Shown here one piece after another: positions 9,621-59,933 of a stretch of DNA of 64,000 nucleotides. The notes under the pieces were generated by a model. The model worked only from the letters and a program-made list of their open reading frames with translations, ran no database searches and was not told the DNA's origin. The stretch is from positions 84,346 through 148,345 of the forward strand of contig JAFUBX010000005.1 in NCBI GenBank assembly GCA_017459985.1, written 5' to 3'. This stretch comes from Parasporobacterium sp. Lineage in GTDB: Bacteria; Bacillota; Clostridia; Lachnospirales; Lachnospiraceae. How positions within the stretch are numbered: the first letter of the stretch is position 1; the number at the start of each line of letters is the position of its first letter. A program made the translations under genes and the position numbers.

Positions 9621-11216
9621 ATGATTCGAATTACACAGCTGAAATTACCATATGATTACAAGTCCCGGGACTTGAGAAAAGCATTGATTAAGAAGCTTCG
9701 TATTCCAGATACCAGGCTTCTTGATTTTATGATTGCCAGAAAATCCCTGGATGCCAGGGACAGTTCCCGTCTGTGCTGGTCGTTCACTGTGGATGTGACG
9801 CTGCAGAACGAATCGGAGTATCTGAAACACTGCCGCGATCCGAAGATCCAGCCATCCCCCAGGGTGAGCTACCGGTTTCCGGAATCCGGAACCGGGATCC
9901 TGTCGGAACGGCCGGTTGTAATCGGAAGCGGTCCCGCCGGATTATTCGCGGCATATTTTCTGGCAAAGGAAGGATACCGTCCCATTCTGATCGAACGGGG
10001 CGCTCCGGTGGAAGAACGGATCCGGTCCGTGAATTTGTTCTGGGAGAACCATGTTCTGGATCCGGACTCCAATATTCAGTTCGGTGAGGGCGGAGCCGGG
10101 ACATTTTCCGACGGAAAATTATATACCGGCGTCCATGATCCTTCCGGAAGAAACGGCCTGGTACTTCAGTCCTTTGCGGATCACGGAGCTCCGAAGGAGA
10201 TCCTGTATTCCAACAAACCGCATCTGGGAACGGATGTTCTGGTCAGGATCCTTTCTGAAATGCGTCAGGAGATCCAAAGGAACGGGGGAGAGTACCGGTT
10301 CCATACGACATTTGAAGAATTCCTGACGGAAGAAGGAAAGCTGAAAGCACTGAAACTGTCCGGCGGAGAGATCCTTCCGGCTCAGGTCGCAGTCCTGGCC
10401 ATCGGACACTCTGCCCGGGACACCTTCGAATATCTGATCCGGCGTTCTCCTCTTGAGGTGGCTGCAAAGCCCTTTGCCGTTGGCGTCAGAGCAGAGCATC
10501 TGCAGGCAGAGATCAACCGGAGTCAGTATAAAGAAGCAGCAGAGAAATGGAAGCTTCCGCCGGCGGATTACAAACTGACCTATCATGCCGCTTCCGGAAG
10601 AAGCGTTTATTCCTTCTGCATGTGTCCCGGCGGCTATGTGGTAAATTCCTCTTCCGAAGATGGGTATCTGTGTATCAACGGAATGAGCTATTCCGGGAGA
10701 AGCTCTGCAAATGCCAATTCCGCCATCGTTGTCAGCGTTCATCCGTCGGAGGACCCGATGGAGAATATCCGGTTCCAGAAGGATCTGGAACACAAAGCCT
10801 GGATGGCGGGGAACGGAAGGATCATCAGCCAGCGTTTCGGGGATTTCGAACAAGGCATTCCCAGTTCCGGTTTCGGAAGGATCCTTCCCGTCCATAAAGG
10901 AGAAACCGTTATGGCAGATATCCGTTCTGTCCTGCCGGCTCCGATTTGTGAGGATATTGTGGAGGCCATGCATTATTTTTCCGGAAAGATCGCAGGATTT
11001 GACGATCCGGATACGATCCTTTCCGCTGTGGAAAGCCGTACCTCCTCTCCGATCCGCATCCTTCGCGGCGAGGATCTGCAATCTGGTATCTCCGGCATTT
11101 ATCCGGCAGGAGAAGGCGCCGGATACGCAGGCGGGATCACCAGTGCCGCCATCGACGGGATCAAAATATTCGAACAGATCTGCCGCAGTTATCGTCCCTT
11201 CAGGAAGAATTTGTAA
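9621..11216 (+). CDS. FAD-dependent dehydrogenase, COG2509-type
   Basis: 531 residues from the ATG at 9621, 8 bp after the previous gene. An N-terminal ~100-residue domain (MIRITQLKLPYDY...) precedes the Rossmann motif VVIGSGPAGLFAAYFLAKEG. The segment FGEGGAGTFSDGKLYTG and the C-terminal YPAGEGAGYAGGITSAA are characteristic of uncharacterised FAD-dependent dehydrogenases widespread in Clostridia. The family sometimes appears next to nucleotide or tRNA modification genes; no substrate can be assigned. The stop codon overlaps a -35 element for the next gene. Confidence 0.87.
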   Translation: MIRITQLKLPYDYKSRDLRKALIKKLRIPDTRLLDFMIARKSLDARDSSRLCWSFTVDVTLQNESEYLKHCRDPKIQPSPRVSYRFPESGTGILSERPVVIGSGPAGLFAAYFLAKEGYRPILIERGAPVEERIRSVNLFWENHVLDPDSNIQFGEGGAGTFSDGKLYTGVHDPSGRNGLVLQSFADHGAPKEILYSNKPHLGTDVLVRILSEMRQEIQRNGGEYRFHTTFEEFLTEEGKLKALKLSGGEILPAQVAVLAIGHSARDTFEYLIRRSPLEVAAKPFAVGVRAEHLQAEINRSQYKEAAEKWKLPPADYKLTYHAASGRSVYSFCMCPGGYVVNSSSEDGYLCINGMSYSGRSSANANSAIVVSVHPSEDPMENIRFQKDLEHKAWMAGNGRIISQRFGDFEQGIPSSGFGRILPVHKGETVMADIRSVLPAPICEDIVEAMHYFSGKIAGFDDPDTILSAVESRTSSPIRILRGEDLQSGISGIYPAGEGAGYAGGITSAAIDGIKIFEQICRSYRPFRKNL

Positions 11217-16969: not shown

Positions 16970-18787
16970 ATGGATCAGATCAGATTACTGGATAAAAATA
17001 CAATTGATAAGATCGCTGCCGGGGAGGTGGTGGACCGTCCTGCTTCCATCGTGAAGGAACTGGTCGAGAATTCCATCGATGCCGGGGCGGATTCCATTTC
17101 CGTGGAAATCCGCGGCGGGGGAATCGAGCTGATCCGGATCACAGACAACGGATCCGGCATTCCGAAAGACCAGATCTCACTGGCCTTTCTTCGTCACTCC
17201 ACCAGCAAGATCACAGACGCTTCTGACATTTCCTTTATTCATACCCTGGGATTCCGGGGAGAAGCCCTCTCGTCCATCGCAGCGGTTTCCAGAACCCAGC
17301 TCTGCACAAAGACAAAGGACGCTCTGACCGGCACCATTTATAAGATCAGCGGAGGAGAGGAAGAGTCTGTGGAGGATGCAGGTCTTCCCGACGGCACCAC
17401 CATGATCGTAAGGGATCTTTTTTATAATACTCCCGCCAGAAGGAAATTCCTGAAATCTCCCCAGACGGAAGCCGGCTATGTCCAGGATGTGGTGCAGCGA
17501 ATTGCGTTATCCCATCCCCGGACCGCATTTAAATTCACCGTCAATGGCAGCGTCAGATTAAGCACTGCCGGGAACGGATCGTTGAAGGACACGATCTATG
17601 CAGTATTCGGAAGGGAGATCACTTCCAGACTTTTGGAACTGGAGGACAGCGACCAGAACCTTTCCCTCAGCGGATTTCTGGGAAAGCCGGAGATTGCCCG
17701 GGGAAACCGCAGCTTTGAGTTTTTCTTCGTCAATGGCAGATATATCCAGGACCGGATCATTCAGAAAGCCCTGGAGGAGGCCTATCTGGGATATCAGATG
17801 AAGGGAACCTTCCCCTTTGCCGTCCTGAATCTGACCATGGAGCCGGAGCTGGTGGATGTCAACGTCCATCCCTCTAAAATGGAGATCCGCTTCTTTGATA
17901 ATGAGACAGTGTTCCGGTCCATTTATGACATGATCCGAAAACGCATCACCCGAAGAGAGAGTATTCCCTCTTTCACCTTCGGAAAGGATGCGGAGAAGAC
18001 TTCCTCCGGCCGGGAGGAACTCCGTCCTTCGTATATTCCGGAGCCCTTTGAAAAGAAAGAGCCGGAATCCCCTCAGGTCTTCCGGGAGGAGATATTTTAC
18101 GAAGCTGCTGAGACTCCCATGAAGTCCGGAATATCTTCCTATGAATCTGTGAATACGGACCGGGATCAGCAGACTCTGCCGAAGGAGCTGTTTGTATCCA
18201 GAGAAGCAAGAGCCCGTCACCGAATCATCGGGGAACTGTTTGAAACCTACTGGATCGTGGAATACCAGGATGCGTTGTATATCATCGACCAGCATGCAGC
18301 CCATGAGAAAGTGCTTTATGAAAAGTTTTTGAAACGGATTCGTTCCGAGGAACATTTCGCCCAGAAGATCCTGCCTGCTGTGATCATTACCCTGACCGCT
18401 GCGGAAGAATCCGTTTACTGCAGATATGCGGACGATTTCCGCAAGACGGGATTTGAGATCGAGCATTTCGGAGGAAATGAATATGCCTTAAGCGCAGTTC
18501 CGGCGGATCTGTATTCTGTAGATCATAAGATCCTGTTTCTGGAGATGCTGGAGGATCTTGGAGAGTTATCCTCCGGGTCCGGGCCGGAGATCATGACCGA
18601 CCGGATCGCCACCGCTGCCTGTAAAGCCGCGGTGAAGGGAGGCAACCATCTCTCCCTGTCAGAAGCCAATGCCCTGATCGATGAACTGCTGGGACTGGAA
18701 AATCCCTATAATTGTCCCCATGGAAGACCTACGATCCTATCCATGAGCAAATATGAACTGGAGAAGAAATTCAAACGAATCGTATGA
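16970..18787 (+). CDS. mutL: DNA mismatch repair protein MutL
   Basis: 605 residues from the ATG at 16970; a TTG at 16961 is in frame and would add three residues, and neither start has a clear ribosome binding site. GHKL ATPase motifs are complete (ELVENSIDAGA, DNGSGI, TLGFRGEALSSI). The C-terminal domain has the endonuclease motif DQHAAHEKVLYEKF (DQHAX2EX4E) and the zinc-site CPHGRPT, so this MutL should nick DNA itself, as expected where MutH is absent. A ~90-residue poorly conserved linker joins the domains. The stop overlaps the miaA ATG as ATGA. Confidence 0.96.
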   Translation: MDQIRLLDKNTIDKIAAGEVVDRPASIVKELVENSIDAGADSISVEIRGGGIELIRITDNGSGIPKDQISLAFLRHSTSKITDASDISFIHTLGFRGEALSSIAAVSRTQLCTKTKDALTGTIYKISGGEEESVEDAGLPDGTTMIVRDLFYNTPARRKFLKSPQTEAGYVQDVVQRIALSHPRTAFKFTVNGSVRLSTAGNGSLKDTIYAVFGREITSRLLELEDSDQNLSLSGFLGKPEIARGNRSFEFFFVNGRYIQDRIIQKALEEAYLGYQMKGTFPFAVLNLTMEPELVDVNVHPSKMEIRFFDNETVFRSIYDMIRKRITRRESIPSFTFGKDAEKTSSGREELRPSYIPEPFEKKEPESPQVFREEIFYEAAETPMKSGISSYESVNTDRDQQTLPKELFVSREARARHRIIGELFETYWIVEYQDALYIIDQHAAHEKVLYEKFLKRIRSEEHFAQKILPAVIITLTAAEESVYCRYADDFRKTGFEIEHFGGNEYALSAVPADLYSVDHKILFLEMLEDLGELSSGSGPEIMTDRIATAACKAAVKGGNHLSLSEANALIDELLGLENPYNCPHGRPTILSMSKYELEKKFKRIV

Positions 18788-19728
18788 AAAAAGAGCCTCT
18801 TGTGATCATCGCCGGAGCAACGGCGGTGGGAAAAACAGAGCTGTCCCTGAGGCTTGCAGAAAGGATCGGTGCGGAGATCATCAGCGCGGATTCCATGCAG
18901 GTCTATCAGGGATTCAATATCGGAACCGCCAAGATCTCCCGGGCTGAAATGAGGGGCATCCCCCATTATCTGATCGATATCCTGCAGCCGGAGGAAGAAT
19001 TCAATATCTATGAATTCCAGAAAAGAGCCCTGGACTGTATTCAGAAGATCCGGGCAAAGGGAAGAATCCCCATGATTGTCGGAGGGACCGGCTTCTATAT
19101 CCAGTCAGTTCTGTACGGGATCGACTTTTCCGAGGAAAGCCCGGACAAGTCTTATCGCAGATACCTGGAGGGGCTCGCTGCAGAGAAGGGGCCGGAGGTT
19201 CTTTATGAGATGCTGAAACAGGCCGATCCGGTCTCTGCAGAGGAGATCCATTTTCACAATGTCAAAAGGGTGATCCGGGCACTTGAGTTTTATCAGGAAA
19301 CCGGAACCAGAATCTCGGAACACAACCTGCAGCAGCGGCAGAAAGAACCGGTATACAACAGCGCTTATTTTGTGCTGAACAGGGAACGCTCCGTTATCTA
19401 TGACCGGATCAACCGGCGGGTGGATCAGATGCTGCGGGAGGGTCTGGTGGAAGAAGTGAAAGGTCTTCTCGCGGATGGAGTGGATCCTGAGTGCCTTGCA
19501 ATGCAGGGACTGGGATATAAAGAGATCCTGGGATATCTGAACAACGAACGATCCCTGGAGGAAGCGGTCAGCCTTCTCAAACAGAATACAAGACATTTTG
19601 CGAAGAGGCAGATCACCTGGTTTAAAAGAGAGAAAGATCCTGTCTGGATCAATTACGAGGACTTCGGATCCATGGATGACATGCTGGAATCCATGATCCG
19701 GATTTTAAAGGAGAAAAAGATTGTTTAA
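18784..19728 (+). CDS. miaA: tRNA dimethylallyltransferase MiaA
   Basis: 314 residues. Transfers a dimethylallyl group to N6 of A37 in tRNAs, making the substrate of MiaB. The P-loop GATAVGKTELSLRLA begins at about residue 10, and ISADSMQVYQGFNIGTAK, the catalytic DSMQ-type motif, and the C-terminal ARRQ-like FAKRQITWFKRE motif are present. It overlaps mutL by 4 bp and the next gene by 8 bp. Confidence 0.96.
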   Translation: MKKEPLVIIAGATAVGKTELSLRLAERIGAEIISADSMQVYQGFNIGTAKISRAEMRGIPHYLIDILQPEEEFNIYEFQKRALDCIQKIRAKGRIPMIVGGTGFYIQSVLYGIDFSEESPDKSYRRYLEGLAAEKGPEVLYEMLKQADPVSAEEIHFHNVKRVIRALEFYQETGTRISEHNLQQRQKEPVYNSAYFVLNRERSVIYDRINRRVDQMLREGLVEEVKGLLADGVDPECLAMQGLGYKEILGYLNNERSLEEAVSLLKQNTRHFAKRQITWFKREKDPVWINYEDFGSMDDMLESMIRILKEKKIV

Positions 19729-32103: not shown

Positions 32104-32673
32104 ATGAAAGACTCTCCGAATTATCGCAGAAAACTGAATATGCACCTCATCCTTCAGATTCTGATGGTTCCTGTTCTGATCCTGATTGACCAGCTCACTA
32201 AATATCTGGCAGCGTCTTCACTGAAGTCTGGCGGAGACCTGTCCCTGATCAAAGGTCTGGTCAATCTTCATTATCTGGAAAATCAGGGTGCCGCCTTTGG
32301 TATTTTCACAGGACGATTCTGGCTGTTTTATGTGATTACGGTAGTTATCCTGATCCTTCTGACAGTTTTTTATTGTCGGATTCATAAGAGGCTCCAGTCT
32401 TATTGTTCTGATAAAACCATCATCCCGGACAGAAAGACCATAAGGAATCAGCTGTTTTTATGCGATCTTCTGTGTCTTTTGGCTTCCGGAGCCATTGGGA
32501 ACTTCATCGACCGGATCCTGCGCGGGTATGTGATTGATTTTATTTCTCTTCAGTTTATCTCTTTTCCCGTGTTTAATCTTGCGGATATCTATGTCACAAT
32601 TTCCGCAGTAATGATCGTCATTTTCTTCCTTTTTATTTATAAAGAAGACAGGAATTTTCATTTATGGGGCTGA
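32104..32673 (+). CDS. lspA: Lipoprotein signal peptidase (signal peptidase II)
   Basis: 189 residues from the ATG at 32104; the open frame runs further upstream through the terminator, and the ATG at 32140 is an alternative. Four membrane segments. Conserved motifs are LIDQLTKYLA, LHYLENQGAAFGIF, GAIGNFIDRILRGYVIDFI and FNLADIYVT, the last two carrying the catalytic aspartates. It cleaves signal peptides of diacylated prolipoproteins, such as the binding protein at 57622. A ~30-residue polar loop after the second helix pair is somewhat longer than usual. Overlaps rluD by 10 bp. Confidence 0.92.
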   Translation: MKDSPNYRRKLNMHLILQILMVPVLILIDQLTKYLAASSLKSGGDLSLIKGLVNLHYLENQGAAFGIFTGRFWLFYVITVVILILLTVFYCRIHKRLQSYCSDKTIIPDRKTIRNQLFLCDLLCLLASGAIGNFIDRILRGYVIDFISLQFISFPVFNLADIYVTISAVMIVIFFLFIYKEDRNFHLWG

Positions 32674-33596
32674 TTGTATACAATGTACAGGATGAATATG
32701 AAGGATTGCGGGTGGACCGGTTTTTATCGGAACAGTCTGATGATCTGTCCCGCAGCTACATCCAGAAACTGATCAGAGAACAGCGTCTCATCGTGGGAGA
32801 AAAACCGGTAAAAGCCAGTTATCAGGTCCGGTCCGGAGATCTGATCAGCTTTGAGGTTCCTCCGAATCTGGAACCCCAAATCCTTCCGGAGAACATCCCT
32901 CTGGAGATCCTGTTTGAAGATCCGGACCTGATCGTTGTAAATAAACCGAAAGGCATGGTGGTTCATCCGGCGGCAGGACATGATTCCGGAACGCTGGTTA
33001 ATGCTTTGTTGTATCATTGCCGGGATCTTTCCGGAATCAACGGCATTTTAAGGCCCGGAATCGTCCATAGAATTGATAAGGATACTTCCGGCATTCTTGT
33101 ATGTGCAAAATCTGATCAGGCCCACAGAGGGCTTGCTGAGCAATTTAAAGTGCATTCCATACATCGGATGTATGAAGCCGTCTGTGTCGGAAATTTTAAG
33201 GAATCAGCAGGAACCGTGACCGGGTCCATCGGACGTAATCCCAATCAGCGCAAACTGATGGCAATCAATGAACGGAATGGAAAGCCTGCAGTCACACATT
33301 ATCAGGTGATCCGGAATTTTTCCAAATATTCTCATATTTCCTGCATTCTGGAAACCGGGAGAACACATCAGATCCGGGTTCATATGGCCAGCATTCATCA
33401 TCCGCTGTTAGGAGATATCTCATATGGCGGAAATACGTCGTCCTTTAAACTGGACGGCAAAGATCTGGAGGGACAGACACTGCATGCCAGAGAGCTCGGA
33501 TTTATTCATCCGATTACCGGAGCCTATCTGGAATTTACATCCGAGCTTCCCGAGTATTTCCAAAAACTTCTGAAAAAACTGGAGAACCGGAATTAG
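32664..33596 (+). CDS. rluD: Ribosomal large subunit pseudouridine synthase, RluD-type
   Basis: 310 residues. An S4 RNA-binding domain (RVDRFLSEQSDDLSRSYIQKLI) precedes the catalytic domain with GIVHRIDKDTSGILVCAKSD, in which the aspartate is the nucleophile. ETGRTHQIRVHMASIHHPLLGD is also typical. The lspA-rluD pair is widespread in Firmicutes. The exact rRNA sites modified cannot be assigned from sequence; a paralogue lies at 47222-48259. Confidence 0.92.
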   Translation: MGLIVYNVQDEYEGLRVDRFLSEQSDDLSRSYIQKLIREQRLIVGEKPVKASYQVRSGDLISFEVPPNLEPQILPENIPLEILFEDPDLIVVNKPKGMVVHPAAGHDSGTLVNALLYHCRDLSGINGILRPGIVHRIDKDTSGILVCAKSDQAHRGLAEQFKVHSIHRMYEAVCVGNFKESAGTVTGSIGRNPNQRKLMAINERNGKPAVTHYQVIRNFSKYSHISCILETGRTHQIRVHMASIHHPLLGDISYGGNTSSFKLDGKDLEGQTLHARELGFIHPITGAYLEFTSELPEYFQKLLKKLENRN

Positions 33597-34627
33597 GGAT
33601 GAGGATCTGTTTCCTCCTGTTTATATGCTTTTTGCGATATATCTTTGCGTTAAAGTTGACTTTTTTCCATAGTTGTATGTCGGGAATCCATAATTCTCTT
33701 CGGTACTTTAGGCGGGTGATTTCCTTGCTCTGGGCGATGTAGCAAACCGAGTCTGCGAACGGCATCAGGAATGCATCTGCTTTTGTACAGCGTTAGATTT
33801 GATGACAGACTCTTTTCTGCATCTTGTACAAAAAAACCGGAAATTGAGAACACTTTTCTTTGTTCTTATATTAAGATTTTTCTCAGCACGTTGCATTTTT
33901 GCTACGCACAGGAGAAAAATGAAAAATGAGAACAAAATCTGCTACGCATACAGTGGAATGGCCATTTTGAGAACATATAAAATGCATCTTATATCTGGAA
34001 TTTGCCGTGGAAGATGCATTCGCCGGAGTTTCTGAAATAATTCCTTATTTTCTGCTCTTTCGTGAGAAAATATATGTTCCGCCATGCAGCAGTCCCTGTC
34101 CTTCCACAGATGTACGGAAGGTCAGGGATGGAGTTTACAAGCTTTTTCTGAAATTACCTTCCGGATTTTTGATGATTTACCTGGAAAATGGAAGGCAGCA
34201 CATGGAATTTATAAGCTTTTTCAGAATTTACCTTACCCTTTGAGATACAGCATTATCAGGATCCGACTCCGCTTCTAGAGCGGCCACTCTTATACAACCT
34301 TCCGCTTCCCGGTTCAATCATCGAAGAATAATGATAGATATTCTTTATTTCAAAACATTTCTATAATATAATATTTCTGTTACCGGTGTTTAGTTTTCAA
34401 TGCAAATTAAAGTGCTTGCCGAAGAAGCTGCGGCAGAACAAACACGGTACTTCATGGTCTGTCACCTGTCCTTCTGATTTTAGTTATGACGAAGAAATTT
34501 GACGTTGGATCAGGCCATAGAATTACTGGAAACCGTTGAGATTTATTGATTTTTGTAACATATTGTTAATAATTCAAATATTACTTTTACAGACTGATAT
34601 AAATCACCGAAAATGAAGGAGATATGA
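33597..34627. other. About 1 kb gene-free interval with a dispersed repeat
   Basis: No convincing gene. 33597-33800 has overlapping short minus-strand frames that could be the relic of a decayed gene. 33840-33993 is AT-rich and repeats TGAGAACA at 33845, 33927 and 33968 (spacings 82 and 41) and GCTACGCA at 33901 and 33941. 33994-34236 is a copy of the modular repeat found inverted at 59436-59674 (separate entry). 34340-34627 is AT-rich and should hold the promoter for the TtcA-like gene. Confidence 0.6.
33994..34236 (+). repeat. Dispersed modular intergenic repeat, copy 1
   Basis: Aligns along its length with the reverse complement of 59436-59674. Shared blocks include GTGGAAGATGCA, CTGAAATAATTCCT, GTGAGAAAA and two submodules whose ends are inverted. 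The submodules lie at 34116-34162 (GGAAGGT ... ACCTTCC) and about 34190-34236, 74 bp apart, both containing TGGA(G/A)TTTA and AAGCTTTTTC. A strong extra hairpin lies at 34093-34128 (TCCCTG-T-CCTTCC paired with GGAAGG-T-CAGGGA). Non-coding; identity between the copies is imperfect, so it is old or under structural constraint. Confidence 0.8.
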
Positions 34628-35335
34628 TTGACATCCAGACAGCTGTTGAGTCAAACCCGTAGAGCAATTGACGATTTCGGGATGATTAATGATGGAGATA
34701 TGATTGCGATAGGCGTTTCAGGAGGAAAGGATTCCCTCTCTCTTCTCTATGCGATGAAGCAATTGTCCCGATTCTATCCACACCCTTTTCAGATTCATGC
34801 TGTGACGGTGGATCTGGGGTTTGGTAATCTTGATCTGGAACAAATCGCTGCCTATTGTGAAGACCTCGAAGTTCCTTATCATATTGCAGAAACGCAGATT
34901 GCGGAGATCGTATTTAATCAGCGTCAGGAATCCAATCCCTGCTCTCTCTGCGCGAAAATGCGCAAAGGCGCGTTTAATCAGTTTGTGAAAGAACTCGGAT
35001 GTAATAAAACGGCCTTCGGACATCATAAAGACGACCTTGTGCAGACAATGCTGATGTCGCTGATCTTCGAAGGCCGGTTTCATACATTTGAACCTGTAAC
35101 CGTGCTGGACCGCAGCGGCCTGACTTTGATCCGGCCATTCATTTATATTAACGAAGCGGATATTAAAGGATTTATCAACAAATATCAGATAACTCCATTA
35201 AAGAATCCCTGTCCTGCCGACGGAAATACCAGCCGGCAGCAGATCGCGGAATTGTTGTCTTCTCTGAACCGGACTTATCCCGGTGTAAAAGACCGTATGT
35301 TTACTGCGATCATGAATCAGCTGATTCCTCATTAA
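34628..35335 (+). CDS. TtcA-like tRNA 2-thiolation ATP-binding protein
   Basis: 235 residues. N-type ATP pyrophosphatase with the PP-loop SGGKDS at residues 31-36. NPCSLCAKMRKG (Cys105, Cys108) and a later NPCPADG supply the cysteines used by TtcA-family enzymes to hold an Fe-S cluster. TtcA makes 2-thiocytidine at position 32 of some tRNAs; here the substrate is inferred. The start is a TTG at 34628 with GAAGGAGATATGA upstream; the nearby ATG is in another frame. Separated by 15 bp from the recombinase gene. Confidence 0.85.
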   Translation: MTSRQLLSQTRRAIDDFGMINDGDMIAIGVSGGKDSLSLLYAMKQLSRFYPHPFQIHAVTVDLGFGNLDLEQIAAYCEDLEVPYHIAETQIAEIVFNQRQESNPCSLCAKMRKGAFNQFVKELGCNKTAFGHHKDDLVQTMLMSLIFEGRFHTFEPVTVLDRSGLTLIRPFIYINEADIKGFINKYQITPLKNPCPADGNTSRQQIAELLSSLNRTYPGVKDRMFTAIMNQLIPH

Positions 35336-35350
35336 TCAAACGGAGATACT

Positions 35351-36421
35351 ATGCCGAACAAAAGTTATCACGATCAGTTCTCAAAAGAAACCAACCTGAA
35401 GATCCGGGAACTGGGAAAATCCCTTCCCGCTTTCTGCAGGTACTTTTTCCGGGGGATCGAACCAACGACCCAGGCAAGGACACGTCTTGCTTATGCTTAT
35501 GACCTCATCGTATTCTTCAATTATCTGAAATCGGAAACAACGCTTTGTGAAGAGAAGGAAATTCCGGATCTTACGATCCAGGTTCTTGACAAAGTAACAC
35601 CCGGAATTATCCAGGATTACCTGGAATATCTGAAGCTTTATAATAACAAAGATTCCGAAGAACGAACCAACAGCGAGCGGGGACTGAACCGCAAACTGGC
35701 CAGCATTCGTTCCTTCTATCGTTATTTCTATGAAATGGAAATGATCAGCACCAATCCCGCATCGATCGTAAGGATGCCAAAGACCCATGAGAAAGACATT
35801 GTACGTCTGGAGGGATCGGAGATTTCCGATCTTCTCGAAGCGGTGGATTCCGGAGCAAATATGACGAAACAGCAGCGGGCATACCACGAAAAAACCCGGA
35901 TCCGGGATCTGGCAGTCATTACTCTGCTTCTTGGCACCGGAATCCGTGTTTCCGAATGTGTCGGTCTGGATCTCCAGGATGTGGATTTTAAAAATCACGG
36001 GATCCGGATCACGCGAAAAGGCGGAAATCAGGTAATTGTATATTTCGGCGACGAAGTGGAAGATGCCCTTTACAACTATCTCAGAGAGCGGATGTCCGTG
36101 ATTCCTCAGCCCGGACATGAGGATGCTTTTTTCCTGTCGATGCAGAAGAAGCGCCTTTCGGTCCATTCCGTGGAAAACCTGGTCAAAAAATACGCCTCTC
36201 AAGTAACGCAGCTGAAAAAGATCACACCGCATAAATTGCGCAGCACCTACGGAACGCAGCTCTACCGGGAAACCGGAGATATCTATCTGGTCGCAGATGT
36301 TCTCGGACATTCGGATGTGAATACCACGAAGAAGCATTATGCTGCCCTGGAAGATGAAAGGCGCCGCAGTGCCAGAAATGTCGTCTCCTTAAGAAAAAAG
36401 GATTCGGATGAGTCAGATTAA
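35351..36421 (+). CDS. Xer-type tyrosine recombinase (XerS-like length)
   Basis: 356 residues. SAM-like N-terminal core-binding domain (about residues 20-140) and catalytic domain with the full set: Arg in GTGIRVSEC, Lys in RITRKGGN, HKLR, H in LGHSDVNTTKKHY, whose final Tyr is the nucleophile. No phage or transposon partner and no tRNA target lies beside it, so a chromosome dimer resolution role (single-recombinase XerS/dif type, also ~356 residues) is plausible. Its last two codon bases overlap the convergent azlD stop (TTAA). Confidence 0.85.
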   Translation: MPNKSYHDQFSKETNLKIRELGKSLPAFCRYFFRGIEPTTQARTRLAYAYDLIVFFNYLKSETTLCEEKEIPDLTIQVLDKVTPGIIQDYLEYLKLYNNKDSEERTNSERGLNRKLASIRSFYRYFYEMEMISTNPASIVRMPKTHEKDIVRLEGSEISDLLEAVDSGANMTKQQRAYHEKTRIRDLAVITLLLGTGIRVSECVGLDLQDVDFKNHGIRITRKGGNQVIVYFGDEVEDALYNYLRERMSVIPQPGHEDAFFLSMQKKRLSVHSVENLVKKYASQVTQLKKITPHKLRSTYGTQLYRETGDIYLVADVLGHSDVNTTKKHYAALEDERRRSARNVVSLRKKDSDESD

Positions 36422-59373: not shown

Positions 59374-59435
59374 TTCCCCTCGAAACAATGGTTTATGTAA
59401 TACAGGCAATGGACTGTGATCGCCATGGCTATTCA

Positions 59436-59674
59436 GAAGGTAAATTAAGAAAAACCTTATAAACTCCATACCCTACCTTCTGTTTTCCGGGCAAATTATC
59501 GAAAATCCGGAAGGTAATTCAAGAAAAAGCCTGTAAACCCCATACCCGACCTTCCGCCCTCCGCTGGAGGCTCGGAATTGATGAATGTTCAATGTGTTTT
59601 CTCACATAAGGGTCGAAAATCAGGAATTATTTCAGGAAACTCCGACAACTGCATCTTCCACAGTAAATTCCGGA
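59436..59674 (-). repeat. Dispersed modular intergenic repeat, copy 2 (inverted)
   Basis: Reverse complement aligns with 33994-34236. Two submodules with inverted ends lie at 59436-59480 (GAAGGTAAATT ... ACCTTC) and 59509-59555 (GGAAGGTAATTC ... ACCTTCC), start-to-start 73 bp, against 74 bp in copy 1. A short hairpin CCTCC-GCT-GGAGG (59558-59570) sits where copy 1 has its strong hairpin, with different bases, which looks like conservation of structure more than sequence. Confidence 0.8.
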
Positions 59675-59933
59675 TTTGAAATCCCCGAAATCATAGGTGT
59701 TTACCGCTGATTATAGGGCTTTAATAAAACCCTCTGAAACCGTTGAAAACAAAGGATTTTTCACAATCTGCTCACCGAATCCATTTATTAATTGTTACAC
59801 CGTTTCTACAACGCCCTCGCTGCTCATAAGGGCAAAAGCAAGGGCAAGAAAATCCCATAACAGGATATAACAAGGTGTGGCAATCGGGAGCCTGTGACAT
59901 ATGTGCGAATAAAGCAACAGCACGAATTATCGG

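Follow-up and report, generated by a model that had tools for sequence, protein, structure and literature searches.

Alternating arrays of short words that differ between species in intergenic DNA of a Lachnospiraceae-like genus

In four of the 14 genomes of one genus, mostly intergenic arrays are present in which a short word alternates between its two orientations at regular spacing. The word differs between species and is conserved, whereas the sequence between the words drifts, and covariation at the word bases is nearly absent. Most descriptions of bacterial interspersed repeats treat them as copies of a single sequence. In the present class, each intergenic element is an array of one word of about 6-8 bp in alternating orientation, with spacers that are fixed in length and nearly free in sequence. 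We give roughly even odds (a probability of about 0.5) to these being DNA-level multi-site arrays for putative word-specific proteins, dispersed as elements that selection maintains. On this reading a word would serve as one half-site for a DNA-binding protein with sequence specificity, and the protein would occupy 4-16 half-sites and build a large complex or a DNA bridge between genes, perhaps as an insulator, a chromosome-organising site or a boundary to convergent transcription. The arrays may have spread by copying as dispersed, probably non-autonomous elements, with their words then kept by selection.

The starting point was a window of 64,000 bp from a Lachnospiraceae-like draft genome of 3.53 Mb in 131 contigs (G000). 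The same-genus set comprises G000 and 13 other genomes; G-numbers denote genomes, L-numbers fetched loci and C-numbers contigs. From G000 itself 38 loci were sampled with their flanks, followed by 14 more.

The repeat in the window and its mosaic relatives

The preliminary description of the window reported two gene-free stretches that align on opposite strands, and these are indeed present (77% over 243 columns, E 2.8e-45). Each copy has the two submodules with GGAAGGT/ACCTTCC-like ends that were described, read here as 47-bp units 74 bp apart, so that the module is the array GGAAGGT-33-ACCTTCC-27-GGAAGGT with a 74-bp period. The extent of about 240 bp first given (33994-34236 and 59436-59674) covers the same sequence but is too narrow; the wider limits of copies A and B in Table 1 are the extent common to at least two other loci. 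A local hairpin had been placed at the same position in both copies, and a CCTTCC..GGAAGG hairpin does stand immediately ahead of the first word in four of the 10 copies examined, but is not kept in the other six. In the second module of copy A, two of the seven word pairs are broken. The hairpin module of copy A has a related form, GCATCCG..CAGATGC, in other copies.

Table 1. Features of the two copies in the window, their neighbours and loci of a further family (window positions unless a locus is named)
Feature	Position	Strand	Basis
Copy A, a mosaic whose left end is of the second type (AGAACA words, GATGC hairpin, GGAAGGT array)	33697..34234	+	Sharing with at least two loci
AGAACA..TGTTCT palindrome in copy A (word also of G006 and G012)	33847..33866 = G000:C14:118192-118211	+	Word-pair scan
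Hairpin module ATGCATCTT..AAGATGCAT of copy A	33982..34019	+	Read from sequence
Copy A, first 47-bp array unit, GGAAGGT-33-ACCTTCC	34116..34162	+	Sequence and scan
Copy A, 27-bp linker; own hairpin possible with flanking words	34163..34189	+	
Copy A, second 47-bp unit, decayed, GGAAGGC..ACCTTAC	34190..34236	+	Read from sequence
Copy B, shorter copy	59430..59682	-	Sharing and alignment
Copy B, first array unit, GGAAGGT-33-ACCTTCC	59509..59555 = G000:C14:143854-143900	-	
Copy B, second array unit, AGAAGGT-33-ACCTTCT, single compensated pair	59435..59481	-	
RluD-like gene to the left of copy A (RNA pseudouridylate synthase, S4 domain)	32664..33596	+	Basis of synteny test
Right neighbour of copy A, PP-loop family	34628..35335	+	Same order in five relatives
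GCATTGC family loci	L239:1096-1344, L240:19109-19310, L243:12155-12395, L249:5173-5398, L250:1-171, L258:696-980 and 10421-10607		

The repeat is not due to chance, since further copies were found: the segment 33960-34260 gave at least 42 matches in its own genome from the 40 of 74 initial candidates that were scored, a number that counts copy B and the query. A 1.6-kb long copy as query, again with 40 initial candidates scored, gave at least 109 matching stretches, and the left half of copy A (AGAACA type) 26, itself included; sharing extends up to 1.4 kb, in L025. The long copies are mosaics of palindromic modules in near-constant order, each module having its own word (TATCCCTG, GATCAGCG, ATGGTCCA, GCATCTGC, GTATCCG, GGAAGGT and GAGGATAT), with recurring distances from word to word. 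The mosaic copies have inverted outer ends, CTTCTGCACC..GGTGCAGAAG, and local palindromes occur throughout the elements. GGAAGGT arrays with differing interiors lie on contigs C12, C21 and C79. In the window's species, arrays of several words would have been fused into mosaics that multiplied recently, and the repeat in the window would be a two-unit GGAAGGT array inside such a mosaic.

Five loci of G000 occur twice with the same surroundings (contigs C36/C85, C43/C12, C58/C70, C64/C121 and C35/C122), and near-identical pairs of loci are L010/L011, L028/L029, L040/L041, L042/L043 and L057/L058. The doubling probably reflects redundancy of strains or of the assembly. Several further copies lie near contig ends. 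A further family of G000, with the word GCATTGC/GCAATGC and CGAAAA cores, was seen at seven loci in 395 kb of stretches (Table 1), and the outer ends of the mosaic elements are formed by sequence related to it. Hairpin arrays TTCTCA..TGAGAA with near-identical units and 33/18 spacing are also present in G000 (L032:2746-3023 and L255:738-896); the one in L032 is spanned by stop-free frames and may be coding. Repetitive open stretches rich in Glu/Ala codons were seen by eye at L156:17250-18000 (G006) and L034:2700-2980.

A search with the neighbouring protein gave at least 80 loci at 52-62% identity, with the best matches in Lachnospiraceae, a placement at roughly the level of the family; a 33-base exact pattern searched in the genome contigs had no match. 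Seven same-genus genomes gave an RluD-like match. The gene order RluD-like, PP-loop, integrase-like is found in five of them (G001, G002, G004, G005 and G013), the PP-loop gene being absent from the fetched stretch beside that match in G008 and G010. Between the ends of homology, the gap from the RluD-like to the PP-loop gene is about 1,041 bp in the window and about 117-218 bp in the five relatives, so the element of copy A was either gained in the window's lineage or lost in others. The integrase-like gene is a tyrosine recombinase (window 35351-36421) that adjoins the PP-loop gene; as its order is kept in five same-genus genomes, it is probably a housekeeping rather than a mobile gene.

Arrays of other words in related species

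Each word is abundant in some genomes of the genus and nearly missing from others. GGAAGG pairs with a gap of 33-36 number 100 in G000 (control 9) and 0-4 in each of the 13 other genomes (controls up to 10). GGTCAC with a gap of 16-19 occurs 61 times in G001, once in G009 and nowhere in the other 12 (controls 0-1; 0 in G001). There are 41 AGAACA palindromes in G006 and 16 in G012 (control 1 each), eight each in G000 and G001, and 0-5 in the other 10 genomes; all controls are 0 or 1 except in G013 (3 matches, control 4). The pair TCATGT-ACATGA was counted 56 times in G000 (control 0), 19 times in G006 (control 1) and three times in G012, against 0-2 in the other 11 (controls 0-2). A 203-kb sample of G006 has its own dispersed intergenic AGAACA/TGTTCT arrays. 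When a long copy of the first type was compared at the DNA level with 60 relatives, taking the best seven candidates per genome, one 27-bp stretch in one of them was the only sharing.

A de novo scan for at least five alternating six-base words at regular spacing found arrays in G000, G001 and G006. A looser scan also matched in the window, in G016, among the 80 loci of other genera and in coding sequence, and the stricter scan was therefore chosen for comparison between genera. The strict scan found no arrays in shuffled sequences, nor in same-genus samples of G008 and G005 (46 and 53 kb) and further 20-kb samples of G005 and G013. Outside the genus (661, 276 and 80 kb) it gave two matches, L073 and L265, the former being a repeat within an open frame of 574 aa. 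The latter, L265:3045-3155 in G020 of another genus, consists of tandem GGGCTGCCTGCGGCAGCCC hairpins with near-identical spacers and is a different kind of repeat. The array class is thus shown for G000, G001, G006 and G012, not for every genome of the genus.

The pattern of the GGTCAC arrays had three matches in viral contigs, of which L208 lies inside an open frame of 518 aa and L209 spans the ends of two open frames (114/300 aa). In the third, L210:320-520 of an IMG/VR contig, several GTGGTGACCA-like motifs stand in both orientations at irregular spacing. A second word of G001, GGAGTA/TACTCC, was seen with gaps of mostly 23 and 17 at two similar loci (L171:10530-10920 and 18700-19080). Among the open-literature entries listed under the terms searched, none described such arrays in Lachnospiraceae.

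The geometry of the arrays is fixed. In nine arrays of G001 successive words are separated in turn by 23 nt (sometimes 24) and by 17/18 nt; three of them (L174, L211 and L218) have the gaps 17,18,18,18,18,18,17 and hence eight units, with the last word of L174 mutated. The AGAACA arrays of G006 and G012 have eight 36-bp units (also given as 24-nt units) with linkers of 5,5,7,5,7,5,5 in L163, L221, L225, L226 and L229, the remaining ones being shorter or decayed. Fourteen ACATGA arrays were found in the 15 loci examined from G000, G006 and G012, and with a walker that permitted spacers of 22-24 and 16-18 nt their 149 steps comprised 76 of 23 nt, 69 of 17 nt, three of 22 nt and one of 24 nt. They hold 11-14 half-sites in ten arrays of G000 and 10 in three arrays of G006 and one of G012. 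The periods of 41/43, 51-53 and 74 bp correspond to 3.9-4.1, 4.86-5.05 and 7.05 turns at 10.5 bp per turn, which for the measured families puts the repeat of the units near a whole number of helical turns. A poorer fit is given by the GCATTGC arrays of G000, with steps of 42 and 61 bp (5.8 turns) and an alternation that is not strict.

A 17-nt gap between six-base words recalls the spacing of the -35 and -10 elements of a promoter. A promoter reading was set aside because the words are inverted copies of each other and the gaps of other words are 5, 12, 24, 27 and 33 nt.

Conservation of words, drift of spacers and base pairing

In the G001 arrays, 125 of 130 word positions are exact and five are off by one base, while the mean identity between spacers of standard length is 0.369 and 0.352, compared with 0.256 and 0.281 expected from composition (nine arrays, intervals set by hand, the stretch of L218 past an irregular gap left out). 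ACATGA half-sites are exact in 142 of 163 cases, with 20 off by one base and one off by two; 16 of the 20 one-base variants are the alternative TCATGC/GCATGA. Their spacers have identities of 0.432 and 0.373, against 0.329 and 0.283 from composition. Because loci were picked by exact-word patterns and array ends were cut back to an exact word, such counts are biased towards intact arrays.

Paired arrays, paralogous ones among them, show the same contrast. In L212/L214, 59 of 60 word bases agree and 203 of 246 spacer bases (p 0.0007), and in L158/L230 the figures are 71/72 and 187/222 (p 0.0004). The contrast is weaker in L219/L229 (words 83/84, spacers 216/228, p 0.20) and in L224/L228 (57/69 and 183/266, p 0.025), where the G012 copy uses AGAACG in places. 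Across the pairs, agreement is 0.983-0.988 for words and 0.825-0.947 for spacers in three pairs, and 0.826 and 0.688 in L224/L228. In the GGAAGGT family of the window's own genome, the core six bases stand at 0.989 and the other columns at 0.89, a modest contrast that follows from the copies, or the mosaic, being young.

Could the spacers themselves be what is used, as guides in CRISPR- or TIGR-like guide-RNA arrays? Short fixed repeats with unique, length-constrained spacers (61/61 and 54/54 different in G001) would suit this reading, which is nonetheless extremely improbable: spacer sequences diverge from one homologous array to another and have a weak consensus in common, many loci of one genome use an identical word, and no effector (Cas or Nop-domain Tas) was among the 30 neighbouring proteins scanned by Pfam. 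The arrays also use one inverted word, whereas the outline of TIGR has a pair of different repeats, spacers of 9 nt and a Nop-domain gene alongside (PMC12045711).

Pairing was assessed with RNAalifold on 33 GGAAGGT copies, with pair counts on two structures, and with Rfam, which was run over the window and, with the threshold relaxed, over a single stretch of 1.7 kb. The 'compensated structure' of the preliminary description comes down to a single case, the AGAAGGT/ACCTTCT pair of copy B, which is the sole compensated word pair in 33 copies. Over 14 word pairs, one of 446 cells is compensated, a value as high being reached in 19 of 500 shuffles, and pairing of the word pairs is 94.2% compared with 94.1% in shuffles; five of the seven pairs of the first module are invariant in all 33 copies. 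The linker stem, counted in the same copies, has five compensated cells (12 of 500 shuffles as high). In G001, the bases adjoining GTGACC are Y/R, but they pair in 27 of 58 cases against a shuffle mean of 29.3, and the second linker base pairs in 17 of 43 (p 0.055). In 11 of the 14 ACATGA arrays, the variable word base shows no compensation either across the unit (52/64, within-array mean 53.9, p 0.96) or across the linker (43/53, p 0.87), and the first inner base pairs in 59 of 64 cases, slightly above the within-array shuffle (p 0.013). Taken together, the pairing tests across GGAAGGT, G001 and ACATGA arrays suggest that half-sites act independently of one another and that selection bears on each of them, as expected for a protein that binds DNA, more than on a fold.

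The preliminary description had offered a structured RNA family, that is, transcribed hairpins with compensated stems, as one of two options. Local palindromes throughout the elements, the compensated cells in the GGAAGGT linker stem and the inner-base pairing in ACATGA units all lean that way, yet we consider such a family very unlikely, and it was rejected as the main reading, since conservation lies in the words more than in their pairing. A word and its reverse complement are both conserved as sequence, and covarying base pairs proved nearly absent from the word pairs. Rfam gave no match at the gathering score over the window, and the relaxed threshold yielded two sub-threshold eukaryotic matches on the 1.7-kb stretch. 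There was likewise no strand preference beside co-directional genes (9 versus 8 loci by element strand; 7 versus 8 without duplicate loci). The elements look more like a docking platform for a putative DNA-binding protein than like an RNA.

Placement, spread and relation to known repeats

The elements are mostly intergenic. With a simple ORF caller, 54 loci of the window's own genome comprised 16 between convergent, 17 between co-directional and seven between divergent genes, with 14 lacking a call; leaving out one of each duplicate pair gives 15, 15 and 6. Arrays of other species and words gave 11 convergent, nine co-directional, three divergent and three without a call in one set, and five, 11 and one in a second. 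Convergent placement thus accounts for 31 of 76 called array loci, compared with 33 of 150 ordinary own-genome gaps of at least 60 bp (p 0.005), and divergent placement for 10 of 76 compared with 34 of 150 (p 0.11), figures that are indicative only, as the ORF thresholds were slightly unequal and some loci are orthologous to one another. Pfam on 30 array-neighbour proteins (15 from G001, five from G000 and 10 from G006) returned unrelated enzymes and transporters, among them pyruvate kinase, acetate kinase, glutamate dehydrogenase, an ammonium transporter and PrmA, with four lacking a match. No regulator or neighbour common to the arrays, and no shared candidate for a protein binding the words, appeared among these 30.

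A serious rival, possible though on balance rather doubtful, is that the repeats are non-autonomous parasites of a MITE- or BOX-like kind that a transposase mobilises in trans, with the words as binding sites or remnants and no gain to the host. It draws on the dispersed copies returned by two queries, on the inverted outer ends of the mosaics and on the widened gap that copy A fills. The excess between convergent genes also agrees with it, resembling that outlined for pneumococcal BOX, RUP, SPRITE and IS sequences (PMC3049150). Copying of a mobile palindrome would fit the AGAACA element, which is roughly palindromic as a whole (in the consensus, linker 6 is the exact reverse complement of linker 2), and the similar unit numbers within a species. 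Intact words amid near-random spacers, however, are not expected of dead insertions. Target-site duplication was not seen by eye in 14 aligned copies from G006 and G012, where the ends of the element are uncertain; in G006 they are the word itself. Among the listed matches of the long-copy and left-half queries, no gene flanked by repeat matches was noticed.

A search for Y1 transposases in the 14 genomes gave 11 loci, of which seven were inspected, and revealed no link to a known IS within this one family. The two Y1 proteins of G000 belong to IS200/IS605 (135.9 and 129.7 bits against an NCBIfam cut-off of 55) and have no array in their 1.5-kb flanks. One Y1-like match was found in G006 (L201). 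In nine of the 14 genomes, among them G012, no Y1 match passes the cut-off; some of these genomes are incomplete. The non-autonomous palindromic element that the preliminary description named as its other option agrees in part with what was found: the repeats are dispersed, non-coding and rich in palindromes, and copy A accounts for a gap that is short in relatives, but alternating arrays with differing words are left uncovered. Neither of the two options covers alternating arrays with free spacers and with different words in several species of the genus.

The same search bears on REP/BIME elements, in which alternating palindromic units derive from a RAYT transposase and are binding sites of gyrase, IHF or Pol I. 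Units that alternate in orientation at regular spacing in intergenic DNA are the BIME layout as outlined in PMC2817692, but a RAYT/REP origin is highly unlikely and was rejected. Both Y1 proteins of G000 score below the RAYT cut-off (27.8 and 34.7 against 80), and the conserved part is, by inspection, a word of 6-8 bp and not a REP palindrome such as the GTAG-headed one described there (PMC2817692).

If the arrays are instead multi-site platforms for word-reading proteins, they would point to a new class of array-binding proteins in gut-type bacteria and offer a natural series for following how a DNA-binding specificity and its many sites change together. Word, orientation and spacing are held, the sequence between words is nearly free and the word differs by species, which is the look of a quickly changing protein-DNA code. 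As a bolder and rather unlikely proposal, the genus may possess a rewritable DNA address system, with word-reading proteins whose specificity shifts between species, assembling between genes at tens of loci, each an array with 10-16 half-sites in alternation; arrays would be rebuilt with each new word, leaving mosaics of former words as in the window. Should the arrays prove parasitic, they would still be an unusual design of mobile repeat.

MITEs are non-coding and dispersed, as are the elements described here, and have inverted ends, to which the inverted outer ends of the mosaic copies may correspond. The elements differ in their internal arrays of words and may also differ in that no target-site duplication was evident by eye in the 14 G006/G012 copies and no cognate transposase came out of the Y1 search. 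With the BOX elements of Streptococcus pneumoniae they share modularity, a variable number of middle modules and enrichment between convergent genes, as far as these are outlined in PMC3049150; the arrays here have several word modules and alternation, and are set apart from BOX by this layout. TIGR arrays likewise place unique spacers, constant in length, between two repeats that alternate, but their repeats are 8-12 nt long and distinct, with spacers of about 9 nt, beside Nop-domain Tas genes (as outlined in PMC12045711), whereas the present arrays use one inverted word with spacers of 5-33 nt.

BIMEs are similar in being intergenic mosaics of regularly spaced, alternating units that contain protein binding sites (in the outline of PMC2817692). 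The units here differ in being short words with spacers that are nearly free in sequence but fixed in length, with several words per genus, and no RAYT over the cut-off is present in the window's genome. STAR elements of Staphylococcus consist of a short motif with spacers of at least 40 bp; their function is given as unknown, and their loci and abundance vary by species (PMC3532100, in outline). A conserved motif, an intergenic position, locus-distinct spacers and species-dependent loci are common to both, but STAR elements are 14-bp direct repeats of one consensus, while the present arrays alternate in inverted orientation and use words that differ between species (PMC3532100). Neither the window nor any of 295 fetched loci contains an exact copy of the 14-bp STAR consensus. 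Since a defining feature of BIMEs and one of STAR elements were each tested for and not found, the arrays are filed under neither: BIMEs and STAR elements provide the closest layouts, and the arrays are a variant of interspersed repeats in their own right.
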